Program-made: the position numbers and the translations under genes
In this document: in pieces, positions 11,530 to 31,977 of the stretch
How positions within the stretch are numbered: the stretch's first letter is position 1
Layout of the letters: every line of letters starts with the position of its first letter
The notes under the pieces: model-generated
Told to the model about the DNA's origin: nothing
Seen by the model: the letters and a program-made list of their open reading frames with translations, nothing else
The model's database searches: none
DNA from: Gammaproteobacteria bacterium
GTDB taxonomy: Bacteria; Pseudomonadota; Gammaproteobacteria; Steroidobacterales; UBA11654
Assembly (NCBI GenBank): GCA_012965065.1
Contig: DTSX01000112.1
Location: forward strand, 23,883 to 63,695
Reading direction: 5' to 3'
DNA: 39,813 bases

Positions 11530-11538
11530 AACGGGATT

Positions 11539-11616
11539 TTACAAAGATGTAACTAAGGATTCCATCCGTGCCTGATGTTCATCAGAAAACCAATAGTTAG
11601 CTGCCCAGTTAGTCAT
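11539..11616 (-). CDS. Possible 25-codon ORF overlapping the ftsB 3' end and filling the ftsB-surE gap
   Basis: Manual translation MTNWAANYWFSDEHQARMESLVTSL*; ATG at 11616 lies inside the final ftsB codons. Confidence 0.2.
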   Translation of the reverse strand: MTNWAANYWFSDEHQARMESLVTSL

Positions 11617-25942: not shown

Positions 25943-28336
25943 CTAAAAAGCTCCTCCAATTGTAAATTGGAATCGTTCCGTTTCGTCACCCCAAGAATCA
26001 CCAGTTGTAGGATCGTTATTTAAAGGAAGGGCATAACTGAATCGAAAGAGTCCGAGTGGGGCCAACCATTGTGCAGCCAATCCGACTGATTGTTTCAAAT
26101 TACCCGCATCAAAACCGTAGTCGAGAGGATTGCCAATTTTGTCATAAAAATCCAGTTCGCTGGTCGAAAATACATTGCCAACATCAAAAAATAAACTAAA
26201 CCTTGCCCTTGTTGCCCAATCTTGCGGTAAAGGTAAAATGACTTCCATTTGAGCTGAAATTAGAAGATTTCCTCCGTATGGGTTACCAAAGTTATCTCTT
26301 GGCCCCAAACGATGTTCTTTATAGCCTCTAATGGTATCCGGTCCTCCTGCGAAAAAGTTTTTGTAGGGAGGGACCCCAACAGAATCACCGTAAGCTCCGT
26401 TGTAGGCAATGTCAGCTTTTGCCATAAGTGTTAAATAGTTCACAAATGGAAACGGAACATTAAAATACTGTTTGTAGCTGTAATTAAAACCGTAATATTC
26501 AACCTCACTTCCAGGAATGGCTAGACTCGCCATGAATCTCTGTGTCATTCCTTGATCAGCAAAGATAAAGCGATTTCTCGAATCATAAACCCACCCGACT
26601 ATCGCTTCTGCAACTTTGAACTGTGTTTTACAAAAATTGAAAGCTCCTTCAAAGCAACTGCTGTCTCCATTGCTTCTAACCCACTGAAGGGCTTGACTAG
26701 CGCTATAATCGCCTGCGAGCAATTCAGAACTCATCAAGTTAGAGCCAAAAATAACTCGCTGATACTCGCTCAAGGGATACGAATATTCCAACCCGAGAGA
26801 AAAAGTTTTGGTTGAGAAATCTGAAGAAGATGCAGTGAACTGATTAAAGGATGAATAGGAAAATCTTGCCGTTCTCGCAATTTCATCAAGCCCAGTATAA
26901 GCATTTGTGTGTGAAAAGCTGTAAACGTCTCTGAACTTACTTGAGTTCAGATCCAGTGCAATTCTATTGCCTGTGCCAAAAAAATTAGTATGAACAAAAT
27001 TACCATTTAAAATAAGTTTCTGGTACCCAGAATAGCCTATTCCTCCACCAAATTGGCCCGGCAGTCCCTCTTTGATCGTAAACACCGCATCAACCAGATC
27101 TGTAGTCCCTGCAACTGGAATTGTGTCAAATTCTACGTCCTCAATAAAAGGCAGTCTTTGCAATCTAATTTTTGATCGTTCCAACCTGCTCTTTGACATA
27201 TACCCCCCTTCCATTTGCCTTAACTCACGTCTTAATACTTCGTCATTTATAGAAGTTGTATCAGAAAAGCTCACCCGCCGAACATAGACCCTACTTTTGG
27301 GTTGGATATAAAAAACTATCTTTGCTTCCATGTTTTCATCATCCAGTTCTGGAATCGCCTGTACTTCTGCAAATGAATAACCATCTTCTCCAAGTCTATA
27401 TTTGATTAACTCTGTAGCTTGCGTCAGCAGTCCCTGAGAAAATATTTGTCCCGGTTGTGCCAAAACCAGTCTCTGTATATCTTCTTTGGGTACAACAAAT
27501 TCACCAGTCAGCTTGACGTCTGATAATCGATAAACATCTCCCTCAGAAATATTAACGGTGACAAATATTCCAGTCTTGTCCGGTGAGATAGCTACCTGAG
27601 CGGAGTCTATCGTAAAATTAGCATAACCTCTGTCCAAATAAAAGGACTCAAGGGTTTCCAAATCACCTTGCAAATCTTCCCTTGAATATCGATCATCTTG
27701 TTGAATAAATGACAACCAATTGGGCATTTGTAACTTCAACTGATCTAAAAGATCTTCATCATTGAAAACATTGTTTCCCACAATATTTATCTGCCTAATT
27801 TGAGCACGATCACCTTCTTTAACATCGATTTTTATCCTAACAGTATTCCCAGGTAAATCTTCCACATCGGTTTCAATTTGAGCACTGTATTTACCGAAAC
27901 TAAAATATTGATCTATCAGTGATCTTTCAATTTCATCCAAAACTGAAGGGTCGTACGTTCGACCGATTCTAAAACCTATATTATTTAAGGATTCTTCTAG
28001 ATCTTCGGTTTTAATATCCTTATTTCCATCAATGCTTATATTTCCTATGGACGGCCTTTCCAGTACCGAAATAATAAGAATGTCATCAGAGGGGTCTTTT
28101 CTAAACTCGATATTCCTAAAAAAACCACTGGAATACACCGCTCTTATGGATTCCTTAATTTTAATCTCATCAAGAGTATCTCCAATGTTTATTGGGAGAT
28201 AATTTAATAAAGCGCCTTCAGAAATTTTCTGCAACCCTTCGATTCTTATGTCTTTGACGGCAAAGGGTTCTTCAGCCTGAACTGAAAAAATACAAAGAAC
28301 AGCGAATGCAACTATTGTTAATCTGAATTTCATCAT
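25943..28336 (-). CDS. bamA: Outer membrane protein assembly factor BamA
   Basis: Signal peptide, POTRA-type repeats, FAGGPDTIRGYKEHRLGPRD (VRGF-like), C-terminal beta-barrel ending in Phe. Confidence 0.96.
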   Translation of the reverse strand: MMKFRLTIVAFAVLCIFSVQAEEPFAVKDIRIEGLQKISEGALLNYLPINIGDTLDEIKIKESIRAVYSSGFFRNIEFRKDPSDDILIISVLERPSIGNISIDGNKDIKTEDLEESLNNIGFRIGRTYDPSVLDEIERSLIDQYFSFGKYSAQIETDVEDLPGNTVRIKIDVKEGDRAQIRQINIVGNNVFNDEDLLDQLKLQMPNWLSFIQQDDRYSREDLQGDLETLESFYLDRGYANFTIDSAQVAISPDKTGIFVTVNISEGDVYRLSDVKLTGEFVVPKEDIQRLVLAQPGQIFSQGLLTQATELIKYRLGEDGYSFAEVQAIPELDDENMEAKIVFYIQPKSRVYVRRVSFSDTTSINDEVLRRELRQMEGGYMSKSRLERSKIRLQRLPFIEDVEFDTIPVAGTTDLVDAVFTIKEGLPGQFGGGIGYSGYQKLILNGNFVHTNFFGTGNRIALDLNSSKFRDVYSFSHTNAYTGLDEIARTARFSYSSFNQFTASSSDFSTKTFSLGLEYSYPLSEYQRVIFGSNLMSSELLAGDYSASQALQWVRSNGDSSCFEGAFNFCKTQFKVAEAIVGWVYDSRNRFIFADQGMTQRFMASLAIPGSEVEYYGFNYSYKQYFNVPFPFVNYLTLMAKADIAYNGAYGDSVGVPPYKNFFAGGPDTIRGYKEHRLGPRDNFGNPYGGNLLISAQMEVILPLPQDWATRARFSLFFDVGNVFSTSELDFYDKIGNPLDYGFDAGNLKQSVGLAAQWLAPLGLFRFSYALPLNNDPTTGDSWGDETERFQFTIGGAF

Positions 28337-28348
28337 GTGGTTAAAAAG

Positions 28349-29713
28349 TTACCAACCAAATATTCTGATCAAATCATTGTACAACGCAAATATCATTAAG
28401 AATAATAGTGCGCCTATTCCGAATTGTTGAAAAATAATTTGTACTTTTTCTGGCAAGGGTCTGCCAATCAATTTTTCTATTAGCACAAATACAATTTGTC
28501 CCCCATCAAGAATTGGTAAAGGGAATAGATTGAGTATGCCTAAACTAATACTGATAATCGCCATAAAAGACAAAGTTGCAATAAGTCCTCTTTTTGCAAC
28601 CGTTCCTGCATCTTTAGCTATGCCTACTGGCCCACTTAGATTTTTCCCTGAAATTTGACCACGGACCATCTTGCCAAACATATTTAAGGTTAGGACAATC
28701 ATTTGATTTGTTTCATTGATTGCCATGGTTAAGCTTTTGGGAAAACGGTATTTTTGAATTGTCTGGTACTTCTTTACTTGATCTTCGTCAATTCGTGCTC
28801 TAAGTCCTATAAAACCTTGGTTTTCGTTATCGGCCTGGGCACCAAGAAATACAGTTTTCTGGTATATCCGATCCAGTCTCTTTATCTCCACCTCAACATT
28901 TTGGTTGGGCTTAGCAATAATGACTTCAGTAAACTGGCTCCAGTTTTTTATGTCAACATCATCAACTTTTAGAATCACATCTTCTGGTAAAAGGCCTGCC
29001 TTGTCAGCGGGTCCATCTGGAATTACTGCTTCTATAGTAGGCTTGATTGTTGGAATAAAAGGTTTAAATCCCAAACCAGGCATTAATGCATTTGGTGCAG
29101 TGAGCTCCTTGGTTCTTCCAGTAACATCCAGTGTTGCATGCTTCAGATTGCCAAATTTGTCTGTTGCGGTGATTTTGATTTGTTCGTCGTCTAAAATCTC
29201 GCCAAGAATTGAAATCAAAGAAGCTTGCCAAGTTTGAACCTCTTTTCCACCCACATTAATAATTTGGTCTCCAGATCTGAGGTTGTTCTGCCAAGCAATA
29301 GATCCCGATTCAATTTCCCCTATAATCGGAGCCACACCTGGAACTCCAACAGAAAACATTGTCATATAAGCAATAATTGCAAAGAGAAAATTAGCAAAAG
29401 GGCCAGCTAGTAAGATAAAAATTCTTTTGGTGGCTGATTGATTATTGAAGGCTCGGTGTTTTTCATTTTCGTCGACCTCTTCACTCCTCTCATCCAACAA
29501 TTGGACATAGCCACCTAGGGGGATGGCGGATAAACAATACTCTGTCTGATCTAAACCAGTTCTCTTACTCCAAAGCACCTTGCCAAAACCGATGGAGTAT
29601 CTCAAAACTTTGACATTGCAAAGTTTTGCTATCAGCAAATGTCCATATTCATGGATGGCGACGAGTACGCCAACCAAGATTACGAATGCAACAATTGAAA
29701 ATAAAAAATCCAT
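28349..29713 (-). CDS. rseP: RIP metalloprotease RseP (site-2 protease)
   Basis: HEYGH zinc motif; PDZ-like GPADKAGLLPEDVILKVDDVDI; LNLFPLPILDGGQIVF. Confidence 0.96.
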   Translation of the reverse strand: MDFLFSIVAFVILVGVLVAIHEYGHLLIAKLCNVKVLRYSIGFGKVLWSKRTGLDQTEYCLSAIPLGGYVQLLDERSEEVDENEKHRAFNNQSATKRIFILLAGPFANFLFAIIAYMTMFSVGVPGVAPIIGEIESGSIAWQNNLRSGDQIINVGGKEVQTWQASLISILGEILDDEQIKITATDKFGNLKHATLDVTGRTKELTAPNALMPGLGFKPFIPTIKPTIEAVIPDGPADKAGLLPEDVILKVDDVDIKNWSQFTEVIIAKPNQNVEVEIKRLDRIYQKTVFLGAQADNENQGFIGLRARIDEDQVKKYQTIQKYRFPKSLTMAINETNQMIVLTLNMFGKMVRGQISGKNLSGPVGIAKDAGTVAKRGLIATLSFMAIISISLGILNLFPLPILDGGQIVFVLIEKLIGRPLPEKVQIIFQQFGIGALLFLMIFALYNDLIRIFGW

Positions 29714-29802
29714 ATAGTAATTATCAGCAAAGATTATGAAGGAATTATAGAGAATCAGTTCAGCAAAGGAAGTAATAAGATGTGAAAATTTACATTTCAG
29801 CC

Positions 29803-30633
29803 CTAAAACCCAATAAGAGCAAGAGTCGAACCCAGTTCATTAATTCTGAAGGATAAAAATGTAAGCAAAGGAAGGGCCGCTATTGTTCCGTCTAATAGAT
29901 CGATGAAACCTCCATGCCCAGGAATTAAATTACTGGAATCCTTAATGCCTTTATTGCGTTTTAACAAGCTGAAAAATACATCTCCTAAAACAGATATGAG
30001 TGCTACCAGGAATCCAAGATATAAAAACTCCAACAGCCTATCCTGTAAACCATAAAATAAAGCGATTAAGCATGAGAATAGGGAGGCTATTAAAACACCT
30101 CCAATAAAACCTTCAATGGTTTTGCCTGGGCTGATGTTAGGTAATAAAGAGGTTTTTCCCATCGTCCTTCCTACAAAAAAAGCTGCTGAATCGGCAATTG
30201 ATACAACAATGACCACGTATAAAAAAATTCCTGGATTCATGACCATAAAAAACAAAGATGCAACAAATGGTAGGAGGATAAAATATCCAAAAATAAAGAT
30301 TAAGAAGTCATTGATATTCTTCTTTTTGTAGGTTAATACTTGGAATAATATGAATAACCATAGTAAACACAAAAACCAAAACAAATAGTTGCTTGTTTTC
30401 TCTAGGTATCCAGTAAAAAAAAGCATTTCTAAAAGACCACCAATAACCAGTATCGGAAAAAAAATCCGGATGAATCTTGATTTGAATAATCTCGAATATT
30501 CCCAAAGGATAATTAGGGAAATAAATCCAATAGCAGTAGCTTTTATGGGAATTGTTGTCGCAGGATGAATTAAGACCACTAGTATTAAAATGAGAACTGC
30601 TGCCGAACAGATTCTCTGAGTAAGGTTATTCAT
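29803..30633 (-). CDS. cdsA: Phosphatidate cytidylyltransferase
   Basis: LLKRNKGIKDSSNLIPGHGGFIDLLDGTIAALP, a near match to the CDP-diglyceride synthetase signature; multi-TM. Confidence 0.93.
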   Translation of the reverse strand: MNNLTQRICSAAVLILILVVLIHPATTIPIKATAIGFISLIILWEYSRLFKSRFIRIFFPILVIGGLLEMLFFTGYLEKTSNYLFWFLCLLWLFILFQVLTYKKKNINDFLIFIFGYFILLPFVASLFFMVMNPGIFLYVVIVVSIADSAAFFVGRTMGKTSLLPNISPGKTIEGFIGGVLIASLFSCLIALFYGLQDRLLEFLYLGFLVALISVLGDVFFSLLKRNKGIKDSSNLIPGHGGFIDLLDGTIAALPLLTFLSFRINELGSTLALIGF

Positions 30634-30642
30634 TGTAAAGAT

Positions 30643-31407
30643 TTAGGCTTTTTTCAACTCTGTTTCCTTTTCAACAGAACCAAAACGTCTTTCTGATTGT
30701 GAATAACTTTCTAAAATTTCAAAAAATTCCTGATCTTCAAAACTAGGCCAGAGTGTTTCAGTAAAATGGATTTCACTGTACGCCATTTCCCAAAGCATAA
30801 AATTACTCACTCTGGTTTCACCTGATGTTCTAATTATTAAATCGAGATCAGGCAGATCTGAGAAAGAAAGACGGTTGGATAAAGTTAATTCGTCTATTTG
30901 ATTTTTATTAATTCTGCCATCATCTACATCATCAATAATCTTCAATATACCTTTTACAATATCCTGTCTTGAGCCATATGCTAGTGCTAGAGTGAGTTTT
31001 AAACCAGTATTTTCTGAGGTAATTGCCTCCATTTGTTCCAATTTTCTAATTAAACTTTTAGGAAGCATGTCTTTACTGCCTACCTGTTTAAAACGAACAT
31101 TATTCTCAATTAAAAGTCCGGTGTATTTTTTGATGGTTCGCTCAAACAGTCTCATCAGACCATTGATTTCCTTAGCGGGTCTTTTCCAGTTTTCTGAACT
31201 AAAGGCATATAAAGTAAGTGCTTCAATTTCTAACCTAACCGAGTTTTCAACAATCTCTTTGGCCTTCAGAACGCCTGCCTCATGGCCGAAGATTCTTCTT
31301 TTACCTCTTAGCTTAGCCCACCGACCATTGCCATCCATAATAATGCCCAGATGCCTTGGTAAATTAATAATTTGCGGGATTTTTTTGTCTGCGTGAAGTT
31401 TCTTCAT
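30643..31407 (-). CDS. uppS: Undecaprenyl diphosphate synthase
   Basis: LGIIMDGNGRWAKLRGKRRIFGHEAG; YAFSSENWKRP; LIIRTSGETRVSNFMLWEMAYSE. Confidence 0.97.
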   Translation of the reverse strand: MKKLHADKKIPQIINLPRHLGIIMDGNGRWAKLRGKRRIFGHEAGVLKAKEIVENSVRLEIEALTLYAFSSENWKRPAKEINGLMRLFERTIKKYTGLLIENNVRFKQVGSKDMLPKSLIRKLEQMEAITSENTGLKLTLALAYGSRQDIVKGILKIIDDVDDGRINKNQIDELTLSNRLSFSDLPDLDLIIRTSGETRVSNFMLWEMAYSEIHFTETLWPSFEDQEFFEILESYSQSERRFGSVEKETELKKA

Positions 31408-31410
31408 AAC

Positions 31411-31977
31411 TTAGAAGCTCATCAATTCTTTTTGTTTTTCTTCACTTAGTGATTCTACGTTTTTGATCATATCATCAGTTATAGTTTGGATGTCTCCTTG
31501 CCCTTTATGAAAATGATCTTCTGATATCATTTTTTCTTTGAAGAAATCCTTAAGGTCTTGAATAGAGTCCCTTCGAATATTTCGAATGGAAACCTTTGCT
31601 ATTTCCTCTTCATGACTTACCTGTTTGGTTAGTTCAATTCTTCGTTCCTCGGTTAAATGAGGCAGTGGAATTCTAATAATGCTTCCACTTGTTATTGGGT
31701 TTAAGCCAAGATTTGCCTTAACTATGGCCAGTTCGATCTCTGGGATAAATTTTTGTTCCCAAGGTGAAATGGCCAGTGTTTGTGCATCTTCTACAGTGAT
31801 GTTTGCCAATTGCTGTATCGGCGTTGCGTTCCCATAGTACTCAATATGAACACTGTCTAGAATATCCGGAGTTGCTCTACCGGTCCTTATTTTTCTGAGA
31901 TTGGATGAAAAAACGTTGATTGACTTTTGCATCCTCTGGCTTGTCTCTTGGTTGATTTCATCTAACATTGACTTCAA
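31411..31977 (-). CDS. frr: Ribosome recycling factor
   Basis: LRKIRTGRATPDILDSVHIEYYG; PLPHLTEERRIELTKQV. Confidence 0.97.
   Translation of the reverse strand: MKSMLDEINQETSQRMQKSINVFSSNLRKIRTGRATPDILDSVHIEYYGNATPIQQLANITVEDAQTLAISPWEQKFIPEIELAIVKANLGLNPITSGSIIRIPLPHLTEERRIELTKQVSHEEEIAKVSIRNIRRDSIQDLKDFFKEKMISEDHFHKGQGDIQTITDDMIKNVESLSEEKQKELMSF

Follow-up and report, generated by a model that had tools for sequence, protein, structure and literature searches.

Exchange of the MEP pathway for the mevalonate pathway is a known kind of event that is already well documented in bacteria. A 2026 survey assigned the mevalonate pathway to 12% of bacterial species (PMC13001223), and a second count placed it in about 12% of the species surveyed (PMC10663253). 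Within the Gammaproteobacteria it has been reported in Wenzhouxiangella (PMC7691419). In Gram-positive cocci, Listeria and Wenzhouxiangella it takes the place of the MEP pathway through the same steps as those considered here, namely HMG-CoA synthase (MvaS), HMG-CoA reductase (HMGR), mevalonate kinase (MVK), phosphomevalonate kinase (PMK), mevalonate-diphosphate decarboxylase (MVD) and an isomerase. The pathway described here differs from these known cases in that HMGR and MVK form a single polypeptide. The original prediction for this locus had suggested a mevalonate route as in Legionella. The mevalonate reading held, but Legionella is a loose parallel, as no species of that genus analysed in the 2026 survey has a recognisable PMK, and HMG-CoA synthase is missing from most of them (PMC13001223).

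The window, that is the whole stretch of DNA analysed (39,813 nt; G000:C112:23883-63695), belongs to a 1.31-Mb draft genome of 131 contigs that is 88% complete. Comparison with relatives gave the gene order tsf-pyrH-frr-uppS-cdsA-rseP-bamA. On the minus strand, frr (31411..31977, assigned by gene order) adjoins uppS (30643..31407; TIGR00055, 271 bits) and is followed by cdsA (29803..30633; PF01148, 171 bits), the site-2 protease gene rseP (28349..29713; TIGR00054, 386 bits) and bamA (25943..28336), for which a homologous and syntenic ORF follows rseP in the relatives. The cdsA-rseP gap comprises 89 nt and extends exactly from 29714 to 29802 on the minus strand, as had been claimed. This is the site of dxr in relatives that possess the gene. 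The place of dxr in E. coli, between frr and uppS, is likewise empty because these two genes are adjacent, so that dxr was found at neither canonical position in the window. The retention of UppS, which uses the isoprenoid product, was borne out by the TIGR00055 match.

The gene order was compared across a sample of 59 genomes, consisting of the own genome and its relatives in the order, 56 of which contained a cdsA homologue. In all 18 dxr-positive genomes with a contig covering rseP, dxr was located between cdsA and rseP. All 37 dxr-negative genomes examined showed cdsA and rseP separated by a gap only, ranging from 5 to 444 nt with a median of 125 nt. A degenerate remnant of dxr was considered for these gaps and rejected, since none was detectable in any of them and the best tblastn match had an E value of 0.13. 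The second claimed absence, that of ispD and ispF after ftsB, was also verified. Neither gene is present in the ftsB-surE gap of the window (11530..11608, minus strand; SurE and FtsB identified by Pfam), and the dxr-positive relatives L226 and L227 have the order eno-ftsB-ispD-ispF at this position. truD is likewise missing from this gap; in L227 it is found after ispF.

Genome-wide searches covered Dxr (type I), IspH, IspF and Dxs, and IspE via the GHMP kinase family. In the own genome there was no match for Dxr (PF02670), with the same search positive in E. coli and nine other controls. IspH (PF02401), IspF (PF02542) and full-length Dxs, represented by its N-terminal domain (PF13292), were not matched in the own genome either, and each of these models was positive in E. 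coli and most of the other bacterial controls. IspE is absent as well, because the single GHMP-kinase match of the genome comes from the MVK half of a fused protein (see below). Hence neither dxr nor ispF was found elsewhere in the own draft, and both were also missing from ten sister genomes, each of which is 64-92% complete.

The original prediction had offered two explanations, namely that a mevalonate route supplies IPP or that the MEP genes have moved, and proposed a profile search of the genome. This search found HMG-CoA reductase, mevalonate kinase and the isomerase Idi, with HMG-CoA synthase unseen in the draft, and none of Dxr, IspE, IspF and IspH. Thus the first explanation stood and the second did not. 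The incomplete assembly in many contigs leaves some room for the idea that the MEP genes were moved or fall into the unassembled 12%, with the mevalonate genes as a mere addition. Against this, not one of four independent MEP families was matched, IspE is missing too, all ten sisters also lack dxr and IspF, dxr and the fusion occur together in no genome of the order sample, and dxr is missing exactly at its ancestral site, which is fully assembled. We therefore regard relocation as highly improbable; it was rejected on the basis of the searches for Dxr, IspH, IspF and Dxs, and loss of the MEP genes is supported.

The own genome encodes a single HMG-CoA reductase (PF00368, E 4e-111), which constitutes the N-terminal half of a protein of 753 aa (C41:29469-31730) with mevalonate kinase as its C-terminal half. 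Both halves scored well above the curated cut-offs of the respective models, with 421 bits for TIGR00532 (cut-off 260) and 245 bits for TIGR00549 (cut-off 163). The next frame (C41:31727-32308) encodes a type I isopentenyl-diphosphate isomerase (TIGR02150, 145 bits with a cut-off of 106; NF002995 also above its cut-off). The residues that we take to be catalytic are conserved in both halves. These were E83, K268, D284 and H386 of HMGR as well as K455 and H462 of MVK in 78 out of 78 fused rows of the alignment, and S548, E580 and D591 of MVK in all 76 rows spanning that region.

The HMGR half belongs to class II, and its nearest solved relatives are the enzyme of Pseudomonas mevalonii and related degradative enzymes. 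The glutamates, the lysine, the aspartate and the histidine regarded as catalytic align with those of the closest of these, 1QAX of P. mevalonii (E 4e-115), and are conserved. Position 146 is an aspartate in the P. mevalonii enzyme, presumably a determinant of its NADH use, and a histidine in 77 of the 78 fused rows, which suggests a cofactor preference different from that of P. mevalonii. The P. mevalonii enzyme represents the class II (degradative-type) reductases; the HMGR found here is fused to a kinase and would therefore have a biosynthetic role.

In public genomes the fused gene is common and was found in Gammaproteobacteria, Calditrichota, Acidobacteriota and Cryobacterium. In Bacillaceae (Oceanobacillus, Virgibacillus, Ornithinibacillus) HMGR and MVK are separate and encoded in side-by-side frames in the order HMGR, MVK, MVD, PMK, whereas they are a single gene in Gammaproteobacteria, Calditrichota and Cryobacterium. 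In a tree of the fusion the family of the window grouped with family f15. Common inheritance of the fusion locus by the window's family and the f15 group is suggested, because the named members of this tree group (L012, L013, L015) share the locus layout of the window's family, a FadD-like ligase divergent from the fusion and isomerase genes. No NCBIfam model for an HMGR-mevalonate kinase fusion was found, nor was a published report of such a fusion in the literature searched, the coverage of which was thin for subscription journals.

Across the order sample dxr was present in 19 and the fusion in 39 of the 59 genomes, one of the fusions being represented by no more than a fragment at the end of a contig, and not a single genome contained both. 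HMGR was detected in 42 genomes, 39 of which carried the fused type and were all devoid of dxr. In the three genomes possessing both dxr and an HMGR (G013, G019, G020), the latter is a stand-alone protein. Full-length Dxs was restricted to 20 genomes, these being the 19 dxr-positive ones and G017, which is fragmentary and has Dxs only; IspF was found in 17 genomes, all of them dxr-positive. The MEP and mevalonate pathways are thus mutually exclusive as wholes across the sample. A second, stand-alone HMGR of 391-443 aa with a strong PF00368 match was encoded at L092-L096 (G013, G041, G030, G016, G053). In tblastn these loci did not match the class II HMGR part of the fused protein, and they probably encode class I enzymes. 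One further genome, G009, contained an HMGR with three in-frame stops and two cdsA copies, one of which is 64-66% identical to that of the window and broken by a stop; this genome is probably a mixed bin.

A tree of seven neighboring proteins required at least five changes of pathway state, four of which were forced by starred branches, and a single clade of mevalonate users was rejected in this tree (p-AU 9e-68). Both states occur in sister families and even inside one family (f4). Since the position of dxr is constant, the gene appears to be ancestral and never regained, and under this assumption the tree suggests seven losses of dxr, an exact count that is uncertain given a quick tree with long branches and uneven composition.

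Neither HMG-CoA synthase, searched for with PF08540 and with a profile built from relatives, nor MVD and PMK, searched for with profiles from relatives, gave a match in the own draft. With these profiles, MvaS was detected in each of the ten sister genomes and MVD in six, and in five sister genomes MVD and PMK are located side by side and adjoin a GGPP synthase gene. The gene upstream of MvaS in the sisters is that for pyruvate kinase. Its counterpart in the own genome lies on C18, a contig that ends 916 nt beyond, and the contig with the far flank of the MvaS site, C81, ends there too. Similarly, C123 starts inside the GGPP synthase gene that neighbors MVD-PMK in the sisters. Because the assembly breaks at both expected loci, we treat the three genes as unseen in the own genome, and not as shown to be lost. 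Where the sisters have mvaS, the own contig ends carry a gene for an M20-type amidohydrolase after pyruvate kinase (L216:2894-3787) and one for a CDGSH iron-sulfur protein (L223:7678-7902). Since C18 and C81 carry these extra genes at the break, the locus is not identical to that of the sisters, and the presence of MvaS there is not proven. A match on C77 was considered as the GGPP synthase and rejected; it adjoins rplU and obgE and encodes an IspB-like prenyl synthase.

These observations bear on whether the pathway of this strain is complete. It could have kept HMGR-MVK and the isomerase, lost MvaS, PMK and MVD, and scavenge isoprenoids or an intermediate, as reportedly proposed for some host-dependent bacteria. 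The joint lack of the three genes in the draft, the small gene set, the deviating synteny at the MvaS site and the precedent of Legionella, in which PMK and, for most species, HMG-CoA synthase are reported missing (PMC13001223), would fit such a reduction. However, both expected loci fall at contig ends, sisters with similarly small genomes retain all three genes, and the catalytic residues of the fusion are intact. We consider an incomplete pathway unlikely, and the three genes are probably encoded in this strain as they are in the sisters. The HMG-CoA synthase of the sisters scored 171 against an NCBIfam cut-off of 360, and their PMK 91 against 166, so surveys relying on such thresholds would score both enzymes as missing. 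This calls for caution with surveys that apply curated cut-offs to this group, and it may be one reason why they report gaps in such pathways.

We are highly confident that this lineage exchanged the MEP pathway for the mevalonate pathway and that dxr was excised, with a predicted supply of IPP and DMAPP from acetyl-CoA and a putative promoter in the gap. The conserved operon frr-uppS-cdsA-dxr-rseP-bamA would have lost dxr from its interior, eno-ftsB-ispD-ispF would have lost ispD and ispF, and no copy of dxs, ispE or ispH would remain in the genome. UppS and the quinone prenyltransferases would then be supplied with IPP and DMAPP made from acetyl-CoA, starting with HMG-CoA synthase. The bifunctional HMGR/MVK is predicted to convert HMG-CoA to mevalonate and mevalonate-5-phosphate in one polypeptide, followed by the putative activities of phosphomevalonate kinase, mevalonate-diphosphate decarboxylase and the type I isomerase. 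The promoter in the gap may allow rseP-bamA to be expressed apart from cdsA.

The TATAAT hexamer noted earlier was confirmed on the minus strand at 29744-29749. The window contains 22 copies of TATAAT compared to 26 expected, so this hexamer is not enriched, and the match alone is meaningless; it is the comparison within the family that gives it weight. The hexamer is part of a conserved block of 17 nt, TATAATTCCTTCATAAT (29733..29749, minus strand), that we propose as the -10 region and start of a promoter for rseP-bamA. This block is identical in nine out of ten species of the family, with one mismatch in the tenth, and in all ten it is located 30-31 nt upstream of rseP. The CdsA proteins of these species are 39-66% identical to that of the window. 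Even with three mismatches allowed, the block is present in a single copy in the window. An A residue is found 7 nt after TATAAT, and an A about 7 nt past the -10 box is a usual transcription start point. Accordingly, the claim of a candidate new promoter is upheld by conservation over ten species and not by the TATAAT match alone.

The type of promoter is less clear. The -10 hexamer is perfect and conserved in the gaps of the window's family; a -35 hexamer TTGACA was matched there in at most three of six positions in any species and at any spacing. A sigma-70 promoter scan called no promoter for rseP at the gap and showed no excess over shuffled sequences in the region (30 versus 28.5). A consensus sigma-70 promoter was dropped, as the scan did not call it and there was no -35 element, and the element is retained as a conserved block with an uncertain sigma factor. 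A sigmaE-type motif, GGAAC-N16/17-GTC, was found in none of the ten gaps of this family.

In other families of mevalonate users a different picture emerged. On the sense strand before rseP, the motif GGAACY-N16/17-GTC was present in 15 out of 27 gaps (e.g. L214, L213, L171, L186). Shuffled gaps contained it with a mean of 0.04 and a maximum of 1 in 500 shuffles, the antisense strand of the 27 gaps did not contain it at all, and almost all other spacer lengths yielded zero. Anywhere between cdsA and rseP, the same motif occurred in only 1 out of 18 dxr-positive genomes (Fisher p 0.0005, uncorrected for relatedness). It was absent from families f1 and f15. In E. coli, GGAAC followed by GTC is the consensus for sigmaE, and rseP and bamA are envelope-stress genes. 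The motif shares the GGAAC -35 core, the spacer of 16-17 nt and the GTC start of the -10 element with the promoters used by sigmaE (RpoE) for envelope genes in E. coli. It differs from these in that it occupies the place of a gene that was deleted, and the family of the window has the TATAAT block instead. No report of a promoter at a dxr excision site was found in the literature searched.

Alternatively, the deletion of dxr might have left no more than a neutral scar, in which TATAAT arose by chance in AT-rich DNA. The lack of TATAAT enrichment, the poor -35 matches and the scan result close to that of shuffled sequences are what such a scar would produce. It would hardly account for 17 nt conserved over ten species as divergent in CdsA as these at a constant distance to rseP, nor for the sigmaE-type motif in more than half of the gaps of other families with next to none in the shuffled, antisense and dxr-positive comparisons. 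A neutral scar is therefore improbable, and a promoter in the gap is the reading we prefer.

For the order as a whole, we propose only tentatively, at slightly less than even chance, that several switches from the MEP to the mevalonate pathway took place, each by clean removal of dxr from within an essential operon, with the HMGR/MVK fusion as the vehicle, and that the vacated site then became a promoter separating the control of rseP-bamA. In this reading the promoter would be of the sigmaE type in most lineages and correspond to the TATAAT block in the family of the window. Full-length Dxs was lost together with dxr in all 39 mevalonate-type genomes. DXP for the thiamine thiazole (ThiG) and for DXP-dependent vitamin B6 synthesis should therefore be unavailable, and uptake of these vitamins or PdxST is predicted.

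Worth pursuing further are the fused enzyme, the clean and recurrent excision of dxr, and the candidate promoter that lies where dxr was excised. Comparisons of pathway swaps that concern an essential building block usually span distant phyla. Here the same operon surrounds the scar in both states, so that the replacement can be resolved into steps that can be put in order and tested: acquisition of the fused enzyme, disappearance of dxs, dxr and ispF, and rewiring of rseP-bamA. Fosmidomycin inhibits Dxr, and resistance to it together with sensitivity to statins is predicted for half of the order. If the proposed reading is true, rseP-bamA would be controlled separately from the phospholipid and isoprenoid genes.
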